A stretch of DNA of 64,000 nt. Source: Thermococcus chitonophagus. Its GTDB lineage: Archaea > Methanobacteriota_B > Thermococci > Thermococcales > Thermococcaceae. Position 1 is the first letter of the stretch; each line of letters opens with the position of its first letter. The stretch is taken from the NCBI RefSeq assembly GCF_002214605.1, contig NZ_CP015193.1:786978-850977 (forward strand), written 5' to 3'. Below are positions 52,966 through 57,497 of the stretch, one piece after another. A model generated the notes under the pieces. That model had not been told where the DNA came from. It saw only the letters and a list, made by a program, of their open reading frames with translations, and ran no database searches. Both the position numbers and the translations under genes were made by a program.

Positions 52966-53553
52966 TTGGGTAAGAACGAAAGAATTATAATAGTGACCTC
53001 AATTTTTGTGGTTCTTGTAGGCCTTCTGACCGCCCTCTACTATGGGAGGAGTGATCACATATACAGATGCTCTGTTGCATTGTTCGGCCTATCAATTCCC
53101 CTCTGGTTGCCAGAGGTTTACACTCCTAAGGGCACGTTAAAGAAGCTCTTAGCTCCTGTGTATGATACTGAGGTCATGGCCTTCTTGGGAGTCTTCATAG
53201 CGGTTCACGTTTCCCTGGTTAATGTTCCCTTCACGACTGTCGATCTGTTCCACAAGGAGTGGAGAGATGCTGACATGATAAGCCACTTTCTTGGTGGTTT
53301 GGTGCTCTGGCTCATGATCGCGAGGATCTTAGTGGAGTTTAACATTCCATGGCGTGACATTTTAAAGTACTCGGTGGTTGCTTTTTACATTTTGGCAATT
53401 GGCTGGGAGGTTGCTGAAAAGGTAAGCGAATCAGAGATATCATTCATCACAGAAACCGTTGGCAACAAAATGAGGGATCTCATTATGGACTCCCTGGGAA
53501 TGATAAGTGGAATAAAAATAAGAAAGAAAATCACTTCTTTCCGGCGATCTTGA
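52966..53553 (+). CDS. multi-span membrane protein of unknown function
   Basis: Protein of 195 residues with five or so hydrophobic segments. DADMISHFLGGLVLWLMIAR followed by GWEVAEK is similar in layout to DUF2238/VanZ-like proteins, but I cannot assign it. Start is TTG 52966 with GAGGGAT 7 bases upstream; TATA-like ATATATTATAAAG lies near 52918-52930. It converges on TldE with a 23-base overlap. Confidence 0.65.
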   Translation: MGKNERIIIVTSIFVVLVGLLTALYYGRSDHIYRCSVALFGLSIPLWLPEVYTPKGTLKKLLAPVYDTEVMAFLGVFIAVHVSLVNVPFTTVDLFHKEWRDADMISHFLGGLVLWLMIARILVEFNIPWRDILKYSVVAFYILAIGWEVAEKVSESEISFITETVGNKMRDLIMDSLGMISGIKIRKKITSFRRS

Positions 53554-54859
53554 CGTTCTCAAACTTTATGTATGGTGTTATCACAGTGTACATTGCTGGT
53601 AATGCCCTCTGTTCCTTGCTGACTTCCGTGGCCTGCTTCAATAGCTCGTAAATGTTCCCGGCAATTAGGAAGACGCTTGATCCAACGATCTCTCCGTCCT
53701 CTATTAGGTAAGCTGGATTTGCCGTCACGGCAAAGTTACCGTTGTCGGGGTTACTTGAGTGTGCACCCTGAACGCCATCGACGAAGTAGCCGTGCTTGAT
53801 TTCCCCAATTATATCCTCGAGTGACCTCTTGCCCTCTTCAATGACGACTGTGTTGAGACCTATGCTGACACCTCCGCCCCTCCAGTCTCTTTGCCCGTGC
53901 CCCGTGCTCTCCGTGCCGTATATCTTTGCCCAGTAGTTGTCCCATACGAACCCCTTGAATATTCCTTTCTCTATGAGCATCGTCTTTCTCGTTGGAACCC
54001 CTTCCCCATCGAAGACAGCCTTTGCTATGCTGAGCTCGTGGAACGTGTCATCGTACATCGTTATAACCTCACTCGCGATGCTCTCTCCAACCTTATCAGC
54101 TAGTGGCGTGGTCTTCTTCACTAACCTCTCACCGCTGAAGGCCGGGAAGAGCGTGTAGAATAGTAAGCCTGAGGTAGCCCAGGGGCCAAAGATTATTGGT
54201 ACTTCTTCGTTCTTTGCCTCCTTGACCTTATAGGCCCACTGAACCTTCTGCACGCCTTTCTCAACTACTCCCTCAACGTCCAAGTTAAGATTATCTTTAG
54301 CATCGAATTCGAATATTCCTGGGGTGACTACACCCTCCTTCTTCCCAACGAATTCAAAGAACAGGTGTGAGTAGCCGAACTCTTGGGTCACGTTTATCCC
54401 TTGGGAGTTGTAAATTCCTACCTCAACCCATGAAGCTCCTGCAGATCCTCCAGCTACAGTTATGTGCTCATCCTTCTCTCTTGCGAGCTTTATTCCTTCA
54501 AGGACGAAGTTAACGAGCCTATCTGGTGAGACCTCCTTTAGCTCTTCATTGACCTTTGGCTTTTCCCTGTACTTTCCTGGGCTTGGGAGGGAGTGCCACT
54601 TTTCATCTGGGTTATTTAGTTTGGCCATCTTTGCGGCCGACTCTATGGCCTTCTTCACTTCTTCCTTATCGGCGGTGTCTATTATGGCAATTCCGATCCT
54701 CTTGTCTTTAATTCCTCTGATTATCGTGACGACGTTCGTTCTCGTTGAGGCCATTGATATTTCGTTAAGCTCAACGTCGACGCTTACGTCCCTTCCCCTC
54801 TGGACGACTATCTCAAGCTCGTCAAAAAACTTCTCACCGTACTTAATCAGCTCCTCCAT
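53531..54859 (-). CDS. tldE: TldE/PmbA, non-catalytic partner of TldD
   Basis: 442 residues of the TldD/PmbA family without the HExxxH motif, as expected for TldE. Seen: TNVVTIIRGIKDKRIGIAI, SSNPDNGNFAVTANPAYLIEDG and GNIYELLKQATEVS. With TldD it forms a heterodimeric metalloprotease that digests unfolded peptides; in E. coli the pair also processes microcin B17. The ATG at 54859 follows GGTGAT; the TldD stop lies within that site. Confidence 0.93.
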   Translation of the reverse strand: MEELIKYGEKFFDELEIVVQRGRDVSVDVELNEISMASTRTNVVTIIRGIKDKRIGIAIIDTADKEEVKKAIESAAKMAKLNNPDEKWHSLPSPGKYREKPKVNEELKEVSPDRLVNFVLEGIKLAREKDEHITVAGGSAGASWVEVGIYNSQGINVTQEFGYSHLFFEFVGKKEGVVTPGIFEFDAKDNLNLDVEGVVEKGVQKVQWAYKVKEAKNEEVPIIFGPWATSGLLFYTLFPAFSGERLVKKTTPLADKVGESIASEVITMYDDTFHELSIAKAVFDGEGVPTRKTMLIEKGIFKGFVWDNYWAKIYGTESTGHGQRDWRGGGVSIGLNTVVIEEGKRSLEDIIGEIKHGYFVDGVQGAHSSNPDNGNFAVTANPAYLIEDGEIVGSSVFLIAGNIYELLKQATEVSKEQRALPAMYTVITPYIKFENVKIAGKK

Positions 54860-54864
54860 CTCCA

Positions 54865-56232
54865 TCACCCGATGAGAATTCCTCCATCGAACCTCATGTG
54901 GGGTCCACCTGAGCTAACAAATGCCGTCTGTCCCTTTCCACAGAATCCAACCTCAAGCCCGAAGTCCTTACCTACTGCTGTTATCTTCTTCAGGGCCTCA
55001 ATTGCAACTCCCGTGATTGAAGTATCCCTTATCGGTTCTGCAATCTCTCCGTTCCTTATCACATAGCCCTCCTGAATTCCCACTTGGAACGCAGAGTTGA
55101 GCTGGGCCTGTCCTCCCCTGAAGTCTACAACGTAGTAGCCGAACTTGATGTCCTCTATCATCTCCTCAAATGACCAGTCTCTCGGCTCGAAGATCGTGTT
55201 CCTCATCCTTATTATCGGTGGGTACCTGTAGTCTTGGGCCCTTGCATGTCCATTTGGCTCCATGCCCCACTTTGCAGCGTACTCCCTGTTCAGCATTATC
55301 TCCTTCAGTATTCCGTTCTCGATGATGTGTATGTCCTTGACTGGGACCCCCTCATCGTCGTACTTGTCGTTTCCAAAGCCTCCCTCGACGTACCTCTCGC
55401 TCATCGTTACGAACTCTGGGGCAATCTGCTTGCCCATGAGATCCTTGAACGGTGAGTTTATGGTGAGGTCGGCCTCAGCTAGGTGGCCGAGTGCCTCATG
55501 GGCTATGATCCCGACGACTATCGGGCCGGCAACTATTGGCCACTCTCCCCTCTTTGGAGCAACTCCATTGAGCTGTGAGTGTAACTTCCTCAAGAGTCTG
55601 TCCTTTACCTTCTCATTGGGCTCTTTCTCCGTCATGAGCTCCCAGCCGTAGTCAACGGCCCCGATGCTGTCCCTTGCCATAGCCAATCTTCCCTCTTTCT
55701 TTCCGGTGACATAGACCCCTTGGTAGAGGTAGTTGTAGTCCCACTCTATTCTCGTTCCCTCGTTAGTTAGGAGTATTTTCTGGCCGCCTCCGTCTTCGTA
55801 CCTTATGTTAACGCTCTTTACTGCTTCATCCTCCTTGAGGAGCTTCTCAAGTTCCCTGAGGTGGTTAACTTTCTCTTCTATGTCGACTTCCTTGGGCTTG
55901 ACTTTCATCTTGCTCTTAACAAAGTCCTCCACGGGCTTTATCTCCGCGAGCTTTATCTTCTCTTTCTTTGTCTCTGCTGCGGCCTTTGCGAGCTTGTATG
56001 CCTCTTTGATAGCTTCCTCTAACCTGCTGAGATCGCTCGTGGAAGAGAAGCCCCACGCTCCATTTGCGAGAACCCTAATTGCTACTCCCCTGTTCAGCTT
56101 TTCAGTAAAGCTCACGAAAACTCCGTCTTTGAGGTTTAGCGTTGTTTTCTTGAGGTTTTCGTACCTCAGCTCGATGTACTCTGCCTTAATATTTTCCTCG
56201 GCCCAGCGAAGGGCTTTTTCCAAGGTCTCCAT
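54865..56232 (-). CDS. tldD: TldD zinc metalloprotease
   Basis: Catalytic subunit of 455 residues. Zinc motif HEALGH near residue 245; a Cys in GFCGKGQTAFVSSGGPHMRFD near the C-terminus is usual. The ATG 56232 (METLEKALRW) follows GGTGGTTCTT; the frame upstream contains the promoter (CTTTTATACAC on the minus strand near 56275-56285) and is not coding. It is divergent from the Cys-rich gene. Confidence 0.94.
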   Translation of the reverse strand: METLEKALRWAEENIKAEYIELRYENLKKTTLNLKDGVFVSFTEKLNRGVAIRVLANGAWGFSSTSDLSRLEEAIKEAYKLAKAAAETKKEKIKLAEIKPVEDFVKSKMKVKPKEVDIEEKVNHLRELEKLLKEDEAVKSVNIRYEDGGGQKILLTNEGTRIEWDYNYLYQGVYVTGKKEGRLAMARDSIGAVDYGWELMTEKEPNEKVKDRLLRKLHSQLNGVAPKRGEWPIVAGPIVVGIIAHEALGHLAEADLTINSPFKDLMGKQIAPEFVTMSERYVEGGFGNDKYDDEGVPVKDIHIIENGILKEIMLNREYAAKWGMEPNGHARAQDYRYPPIIRMRNTIFEPRDWSFEEMIEDIKFGYYVVDFRGGQAQLNSAFQVGIQEGYVIRNGEIAEPIRDTSITGVAIEALKKITAVGKDFGLEVGFCGKGQTAFVSSGGPHMRFDGGILIG

Positions 56233-56378
56233 AAGAACCACCATTGACATTTGTACAGTAGGTGTATAACGTGTTGTGTATAAAAGGCTTTTGAACATTT
56301 CGATATAGATCGAAGATAATTACTACTTAAAAGAGTTTTTATTCACTATTATCAATATTTTGCCAATTTTTAAGCAAA

Positions 56379-56390
56379 AAGGTTATATAT
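56379..56390 (+). promoter_or_regulatory. TATA box of the Cys-rich gene
   Basis: AGGTTATATATC sits about 25 bases before the expected transcription start, which lies in the leader of the gene starting at 56437. It rules out the in-frame ATG at 56392 as start. Confidence 0.6.
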
Positions 56391-56436
56391 CATGAAGTTC
56401 ATGAAATTAATTGCAAGAATATTATGGGGGGGTGAT

Positions 56437-57150
56437 ATGAGGAAGGCAATTTTAGGGGCTATAGTAGCCCTCCTCCTTGTTGGGGCGTACGCCTCTTATG
56501 TTATAAGTTATCCCAAGTATCCAAAGGTTGAAGGTTGTGTAAACCCATTTGCCGTAGTGAAGCCAGTAAGTAGAGTTCAAGAAAATTGGTCAAAGATTAA
56601 TGTATTCTTCAAACTTGCTACCAGTAGGGATTTTTGGAAGTTAGCTAAACCCTGGAACGTTGACTACTCCCATGTAACGGTCGTTAAGCATACCCTTGAG
56701 TACAAGGGCAAAAATATAACTATGCTCGCTATAGGAGCCTTACTGAGAGATAAGAAGCATGTTGTTGTATATTATGAGTTCTCAGAACCAGTGAGAGGAA
56801 TGGTAACAGCCTCTAAAATGTTTAGTATAAACAATAGCTCTAAACTAAAGTTAGTTGCTATGATGATTAACGGCCGATATAAACAGGTAGAAGATTGTAC
56901 GAGGGAATGTGAATCTGACGATGAATGTGGAGAATTTTGGAGCTGTTCTTCATATTGCTGTGACACCAACATCAGGTGTTTTATAGGATGTTGTGGATCG
57001 TGTGGTCTTGCATGTTTTTCCTGTCTTGTAGGTGAAGCCTCTTCGTGTTCGGAATGTGTTTTATGTGTTGGGACTTGGTGTCCCACGTGTGGAGTTCTGT
57101 GCTGTGATAAGGAAGGTACAGTATGCTTAGACTGGGGGAATATGCCATGA
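56437..57150 (+). CDS. secreted precursor with C-terminal 20-cysteine domain (bacteriocin-like)
   Basis: Precursor of 237 residues in three parts. Residues 1-25 are a Sec-type signal or anchor (MRKAILGAIVALLLVGAYAS). Residues about 26-150 form a soluble domain with one Cys. From about 153 to the end, 85 residues hold 20 cysteines in CxxC, CC and CxxxC spacings, with many Gly and Ser, and the sequence ends LDWGNMP. The layout (signal, pro/immunity domain, Cys-rich C-terminal peptide) is like halocin C8 precursors, but I see no clear sequence match. GGGGTGAT precedes the ATG. It overlaps the next gene by ATGA. A metal- or electron-handling secreted protein is the alternative. Confidence 0.75.
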   Translation: MRKAILGAIVALLLVGAYASYVISYPKYPKVEGCVNPFAVVKPVSRVQENWSKINVFFKLATSRDFWKLAKPWNVDYSHVTVVKHTLEYKGKNITMLAIGALLRDKKHVVVYYEFSEPVRGMVTASKMFSINNSSKLKLVAMMINGRYKQVEDCTRECESDDECGEFWSCSSYCCDTNIRCFIGCCGSCGLACFSCLVGEASSCSECVLCVGTWCPTCGVLCCDKEGTVCLDWGNMP

Positions 57151-57497
57151 AGAAGATAAACTCCCGGTTAGTTTTTTCCGTGCTTCTTTTAGTATTCTTA
57201 TTAATACTATCATTGCAATTTAAATTTATACTTTTTACAGCACTTCTCTCCGTCATAGTGTTGTTACTATTTGAGTATAAAGGAGAACACCTAAAAGCAA
57301 TAATCTATAGTGCGATATTATGGCTTGCTACGAATTCTGTTGTAGCGTATTTGATAATTGGTGAAGTTGAAATAAAACATCTAGTGGGGGCTATTGGAGG
57401 TAGCATATTCCTGATAGCTATAAGTTTACTTACTTGGAAAGTTTCGAGACCAAAGGACAACTTACAAAGAGGGAATAAAGAGATTAATGGTCAATAA
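57147..57497 (+). CDS. small membrane protein coupled to the Cys-rich precursor
   Basis: Protein of 116 residues with four hydrophobic segments (about 8-25, 28-43, 53-73 and 80-100) and a polar tail. No family recognised. The ATGA overlap with the upstream stop, and GGGGGA in its 3' end, show coupled expression. Size and topology suit an immunity or export helper for the Cys-rich product; this is inference. The last 7 bases overlap the convergent ACT gene. Confidence 0.65.
   Translation: MKKINSRLVFSVLLLVFLLILSLQFKFILFTALLSVIVLLLFEYKGEHLKAIIYSAILWLATNSVVAYLIIGEVEIKHLVGAIGGSIFLIAISLLTWKVSRPKDNLQRGNKEINGQ

Follow-up and report, generated by a model that had tools for sequence, protein, structure and literature searches.

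A candidate polymorphic bacteriocin–immunity locus in Thermococcales

In the literature that we found, archaeal antimicrobial peptides are described almost only from haloarchaea and Sulfolobales, and a survey of archaeal toxins with a list of candidates was reportedly published by Makarova et al. in mBio in 2019. For halocin C8, a C-terminal active fragment is released from the precursor by a protease not yet identified (PMC12893001) and immunity is assigned to the N-terminal part, in agreement with the title of a 2005 paper cited in PMC12893001. The gallocin A peptides are helical hairpins whose inter-helix disulfide is needed for activity (PMC10100652), and the immunity proteins of pore-forming colicins sit in the cytoplasmic membrane (PMC9558359). 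Here we analyse two adjoining genes, ORF1 and ORF2, in a 64,000-nucleotide stretch of Thermococcus chitonophagus DNA (the window), which a preliminary description had proposed to encode a secreted cysteine-rich precursor and its membrane immunity or export factor, possibly a Thermococcales counterpart of halocin C8. The main point that goes beyond that description is cassette polymorphism, with the cysteine-rich tail and the membrane gene exchanged together.

The precursor gene, its partner and their distribution

ORF1 runs on the forward strand from an ATG at 56437 to a TGA stop at 57148–57150 and encodes a bacteriocin-like precursor of 237 aa (56437–57150), and ORF2, on the same strand, runs from an ATG at 57147 to a TAA stop at 57495–57497 (57147–57497, 116 aa), the end of the one overlapping the start of the other in ATGA. 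A TATA-box-like promoter element (TTATATAT, 56383–56390, forward strand) lies upstream, and intact relatives also carry one approximately 45–55 nt 5′ of the ATG; directly 5′ of the ATG is a G-rich ribosome-binding site (GGGGGGGTGAT, 56426–56436, forward strand), with a G-run at the same place in all listed relatives. A longer frame opens at 56392, no later than the expected transcription start; for this reason, and because the downstream ATG has a G-rich ribosome-binding site in every relative, we place the start of ORF1 at 56437. ORF1 is a real gene, since intact relatives occur at approximately 30 other loci, the dN/dS of the tail within types is 0.04–0.47 (where dS was estimable and not tiny) and the AlphaFold model has a mean pLDDT of 84 (pTM 0.76). 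A Kyte–Doolittle scan gave four hydrophobic spans in ORF2, the proposed immunity protein. The layout first described for this locus (signal-like N-terminus, middle domain, 20-cysteine tail, overlapping four-span protein, TATA box and ribosome-binding site) is thus present, as judged from the ORF coordinates, the hydropathy scan and the conserved upstream elements.

The precursor begins with a hydrophobic helix (residues 2–23, 56440–56505, forward strand), evident in the sequence and the AlphaFold model and conserved in the family, which may be a signal peptide or a signal anchor. It is followed by a conserved N-terminal (carrier) domain (residues 24–125, 56506–56811, forward strand) with a lone conserved cysteine, Cys34, and the other 20 cysteines, among them CxxC and CC motifs, all lie in the 84-residue tail (residues 154–237). 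At 8.3%, the cysteine fraction of ORF1 is the highest of any ORF in the window that reaches 150 aa, a set of 61 that takes in non-coding frames and has a median of 0.35%.

Head-to-head with the precursor gene on the reverse strand stands a TldD/PmbA metallopeptidase pair (53531–54868 and 54865–56298; Pfam PF01523, PF19289 and PF19290). The E. coli homologues of this pair mature microcin B17. The tldD gene stands head-to-head with the precursor at approximately half of the family loci, the window included. This arrangement belongs to a single site, occupied in Pyrococcus and Thermococcus, and the remaining loci lie elsewhere on the chromosome, without it. We therefore rejected TldD/TldE as a dedicated protease of the system, the adjacency being conserved at only one of several sites and so not general, and no dedicated protease or exporter gene linked to the precursor at every family site was found.

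Intact or decayed members of the family are carried by 40 of the 94 Thermococcales genomes (31 of the 74 good ones), across five of six genera and several chromosomal sites. Presence of the pair in every Thermococcales genome, named in the preliminary description as a result that would count against a toxin, is therefore not what was seen; the distribution is patchy. All matches in named genome contigs were to Thermococci. A search of the phylum beyond Thermococcales gave no credible relative, its only two matches (E 0.004–0.009) containing stops and being judged noise, and a second match in the genome of T. chitonophagus itself (E=0.037) was judged to be due to chance. Carriage on mobile elements was rejected, as neither the plasmid search nor the viral contig search returned a relative of the family.

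Cassette exchange and one-sided loss

Comparison of the precursors revealed two halves of very different conservation. Mean pairwise identity in ten-column alignment windows is 0.54–0.85 up to approximately residue 125 and falls beyond this junction to 17–56%, mostly 0.2–0.5, so that approximately 16 types of cysteine-rich tail are found on conserved first 125 residues. In three pairs of loci (L005/L025, L019/L030 and L012/L016) the DNA is approximately 83–100% identical from the ATG to nucleotide ~360 and then unalignable, and in L005/L025 and L019/L030 the high identity begins already 300 nt upstream of the gene. This sharp drop shows that a C-terminal cassette is swapped onto a conserved N-terminal half.

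A small membrane-protein gene adjoins every intact precursor, starting between −40 and +140 nt from the precursor stop, and BLAST sorts these adjacent membrane proteins into 16 groups. The distance between C-domains correlates strongly with that between the adjacent membrane proteins (Mantel r=0.80, p=1e-4; r=0.79 when controlling for the N-domain), in a test from which shared ancestry is not fully removed, whereas the N-domain does not track the membrane protein (r=0.11; −0.03 when controlling for the C-domain, p=0.69). Coupling of tail and membrane gene is near one-to-one. The exception is L012, whose core type is that of L029 and L032, yet whose neighbour is an unrelated 75-aa protein of a type that is often a distal orphan at other loci. 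In addition, the two parts share a divergence time: for L006/L008, dS is 2.72 in the N-domain and 0.43 in both C-domain and membrane gene, and for L029/L032 the corresponding values are 2.47, 0.34 and 0.54. As dS is similar in tail and membrane gene and far higher in the N-domain, the two move as a single cassette.

At L010, L023, L026 and L029 the cognate membrane gene is followed in tandem by further ones of other types, and at no fewer than ten loci (L003, L036 with four types, L037, L041, L044, L045, L071–L073 and L077) one to four largely full-length membrane genes accompany a precursor that is broken or truncated or has an internal deletion. In genome G012 a membrane gene is present with no precursor match, and among the loci examined there was no intact precursor without a membrane partner. 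Loss is one-sided, the precursor decaying while the membrane genes stay, and this is therefore the pattern of a toxin with its immunity gene; the surplus of putative immunity genes also fits the ‘poly-immunity’ loci of polymorphic toxins (PMC3482391). Polymorphism, exchange, coupling and asymmetry of loss were all computed directly.

Several decayed loci have features of their own. L071, L072 and L073, from three genomes, have the same internal deletion joining residues ~1–20 to the last ~27 of the precursor, which leaves, in front of the immunity arrays, a short cysteine-bearing frame that may be a relic or may encode a minimal peptide. In G014 one decayed locus, a truncated core with immunity fragments, is present twice (L075 and L076, approximately 0.7 Mb apart, with near-identical predicted proteins). 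The precursor of L033 (G005) lacks approximately its first 38 residues, and hence the export helix, beside an intact membrane gene, and at the tldD site of G021 (L074, 1507–2322, reverse complement) the family signal segment continues into an unrelated secreted domain (~250 residues), for which Pfam gave no match.

The cysteine-rich core

The tail opens with a conserved six-cysteine module (residues 154–175, 56896–56961, forward strand; Cx3Cx5Cx5Cx3CC), whose cysteine columns are invariant or near-invariant and for which hmmsearch against PDB chains gave a weak, non-significant similarity to omwaprin, a WAP protein (E=0.27). Behind it lies a variable hydrophobic segment (residues 181–223, 56977–57105, forward strand) with a charge near neutral or slightly negative. 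In all intact tails, across 16 partner types, the number of cysteines is even (14, 16, 18 or 20), and variable cysteine columns disappear in pairs: 181 with 222 at nine loci, 174 with 223 in L015 and L018, 186 with 215 in L016, L021 and L035, 185 with 218 in L032, 196 with 204 and, less perfectly, 193 with 207. These counts and losses were likewise computed directly. For the losses, a fully nested arrangement ranks highest among the 10,395 possible pairings of the 12 variable positions, with three mismatches against nine for the next best when two cysteine columns and one L015 residue are merged by hand, and with ten against 14 and an unchanged optimum when they are not. The invariant pair 189–210 fits inside the same ladder. 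From these data we infer nested disulfides 174–223, 181–222, 185–218, 186–215, 189–210, 193–207 and 196–204, and the six cysteines that remain (154, 158, 164, 170, 175 and 230) could form another three, for a total of ten.

Even counts together with paired, nested losses suggest that the core contains a disulfide-stapled helical hairpin. Independently of the cysteine losses, AlphaFold places helices at residues 179–185, 187–197, 201–214 and 218–221, and the model of a divergent second core type gives the same hairpin (helices 181–196 and 204–217) at lower confidence. The extensive disulfides anticipated when the tail was first described are thus supported by the cysteine pattern.

ORF1 and ORF2 had no family match in Pfam, NCBIfam, PHROGs or PADLOC, 27 homologous precursors had none in Pfam or NCBIfam, and the AlphaFold model of ORF1 matched no fold in the PDB or among viral models with E below 0.001. 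No enzymatic domain was recognized in ORF1 or its relatives with Pfam and NCBIfam, and no class IIb or other bacteriocin family in Pfam matched family members. The CGP-CTERM heavy-cysteine model TIGR04292 hit a single one of the 27 members, at E=3.2, which is not a match. The predicted scaffold would be new relative to the families and folds in Pfam, NCBIfam, PHROGs, PADLOC and the PDB.

Proposed system, alternatives and known relatives

Taken together, we consider ORF1/ORF2, with a probability of roughly three in four, to be one allele of a polymorphic Thermococcales bacteriocin–immunity locus with a membrane-targeting core and cognate membrane immunity. This reading is well supported by comparative evidence, namely cassette exchange, type coupling and one-sided loss, which favour the earlier suggestion that the precursor is bacteriocin-like and that the membrane protein serves as its immunity factor, and also because no family or fold match points to another role. 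For the two proteins we infer export, cleavage, toxicity, a membrane target and immunity, as follows. ORF1 would be made as a precursor and exported by means of its N-terminal hydrophobic helix, and outside the cell it would fold oxidatively into the common carrier domain and a C-terminal core of ~84 residues with ten disulfides, comprising the six-cysteine module and the stapled hairpin. The core would be released by proteolysis, probably between residues ~125 and 153, and its hairpin would insert into or attack the membranes of related strains, with ORF2 in the producer membrane recognizing and blocking its own core type. Core and immunity gene would be exchanged as a single cassette onto the conserved N-terminal half, and strains that lose the toxin would keep immunity genes, often of several types.

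Much of the same pattern could also be produced by a hypervariable ligand–receptor or self-recognition pair, in which the variable tail acts as a ligand on the cell surface and the membrane protein as the receptor or anchor matched to it, serving recognition or adhesion with no killing. Patchiness, cassette exchange and co-evolution all fit such a pair, and similar roles have been proposed for VARTIG, a hypervariable module of Thermococcales (PMC8416519). However, it would be odd for receptors of several unrelated types to persist in arrays lacking their ligands as the ligand gene decays, whereas immunity genes are expected to do so. The partners are minimal membrane proteins, and the core, as a compact and hydrophobic hairpin, does not resemble an adhesin, so that we regard this explanation as unlikely. 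We judge far less probable still a cell-surface metal-binding or redox protein of the metallothionein, ferredoxin or rubredoxin kind, which the high cysteine content and the CxxC and CC motifs might suggest. No match to a ferredoxin, metallothionein or other characterized family was found, cysteines are gained and lost in nesting pairs, more than half of the genomes lack the gene, and extreme polymorphism with matched exchange of a membrane gene is foreign to metal-binding housekeeping proteins; membership of a metal-binding family was rejected on the missing family match and the nested losses.

A further alternative is that ORF1 belongs to the halocin C8 family as a diverged member, processed in the same manner and carrying immunity in its N-terminal part. 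The plan of an export signal, a conserved N-domain and a C-terminal hydrophobic cysteine-rich peptide is shared, and Thermococcales halocin-C8-like cores contain i,i+4 cysteine runs (in A3, Cys272, 276 and 280, and Cys294, 298 and 302) that could staple a helical hairpin too. We nevertheless find this improbable. The halocin C8 model TIGR04449 matched nothing in the T. chitonophagus genome and none of the 27 members at E≤10, although it finds true members, encoded by other genes, in six other genomes of the order; profile comparison by hhalign against the Thermococcales halocin-C8-like precursors gave a probability of 1.5% (E=0.035) on a cysteine-driven match of 42 columns, and the N-domains did not align. 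The preliminary proposal of a Thermococcales counterpart of halocin C8 is thus not upheld as a statement of homology, including in the HMM comparison that it had put forward. In addition, the core is tracked by a separate membrane gene and not by the N-domain; because the N-domain scarcely co-varies with the core (r=0.16), type-specific immunity conferred by it is unlikely, though it might confer a general one. The best reading of the bacteriocin–immunity proposal is that the locus works like halocin C8 without detectably belonging to its family.

The halocin-C8-like precursors of Thermococcales (L047–L053) themselves appear polymorphic, with N-domains similar in six of seven, differing cysteine-rich ends and differing small downstream genes, and their conserved Cx3Cx3C runs suggest a stapled hairpin here too. 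Behind one of these genes (L049, 2216–2710, reverse complement) lies a truncated second copy with part of the N-domain and another cysteine-rich end, possibly a spare cassette.

If the bacteriocin–immunity reading is true, Thermococcales possess a widespread, many-typed bacteriocin-like system, and the nested disulfide ladder would be a peptide scaffold stable near 100°C. The approximately 16 core/immunity pairs would be natural specificity variants of the recognition of a membrane-active peptide by a membrane protein, and as genetic tools exist for Thermococcales, toxicity, immunity and cross-immunity are directly testable. By a narrow balance we further favour a new class of archaeal bacteriocin, in which one small, hydrophobic two-helix hairpin scaffold with up to seven nested disulfides comes in many mutually non-immune types, its cassettes traded among hyperthermophiles on a common export half and serving peptide-based kin discrimination.

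Compared with halocin C8 and its relatives, with which there is no detectable sequence homology, the present family has approximately 16 swappable types, 14–20 core cysteines as against ~10–12 in the Thermococcales members, and a separate candidate membrane immunity protein that tracks the core, in contrast with an immunity located in the N-terminal part; small genes, several with hydrophobic stretches, follow the Thermococcales halocin C8 relatives too. VARTIG, an Ig module, likewise belongs to a Thermococcales locus that is hypervariable and exchangeable and encodes secreted and membrane proteins, but it is found in large Ig-domain proteins of over 500 aa (PMC8416519), of which there is none in this locus. 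With polymorphic toxin systems the family shares the recombinational exchange of C-terminal cassettes behind a conserved N-terminal part, an adjacent small immunity gene, poly-immunity arrays and strains with surplus immunity genes (PMC3482391). We found exchangeable cassettes, a type-matched adjacent gene (L012 excepted), and putative poly-immunity and immunity without toxin; however, the precursor is merely ~237 aa, its variable part is a predicted disulfide-rich hairpin and not an enzyme domain, and the immunity candidates are multi-span membrane proteins, whereas most known immunity proteins of polymorphic toxins are cytoplasmic and globular. Colicins are large, receptor-dependent and not disulfide-rich, and no sequence or fold relation to them was found. 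Pore-forming colicins (PMC9558359) nevertheless resemble the system proposed here in that the toxin acts on the membrane and its cognate immunity protein resides in the cytoplasmic membrane, and together with gallocin A they would be the closest working analogues of the proposed mechanism. The gallocin A-like class IIb bacteriocins (PMC10100652) share α-helical hairpins stabilized by inter-helix disulfides, here predicted, and an adjacent dedicated immunity gene; they are streptococcal and consist of two peptides with one disulfide each and a double-glycine leader, whereas the Thermococcales system would use a single peptide bearing a six-cysteine module and as many as seven nested disulfides.
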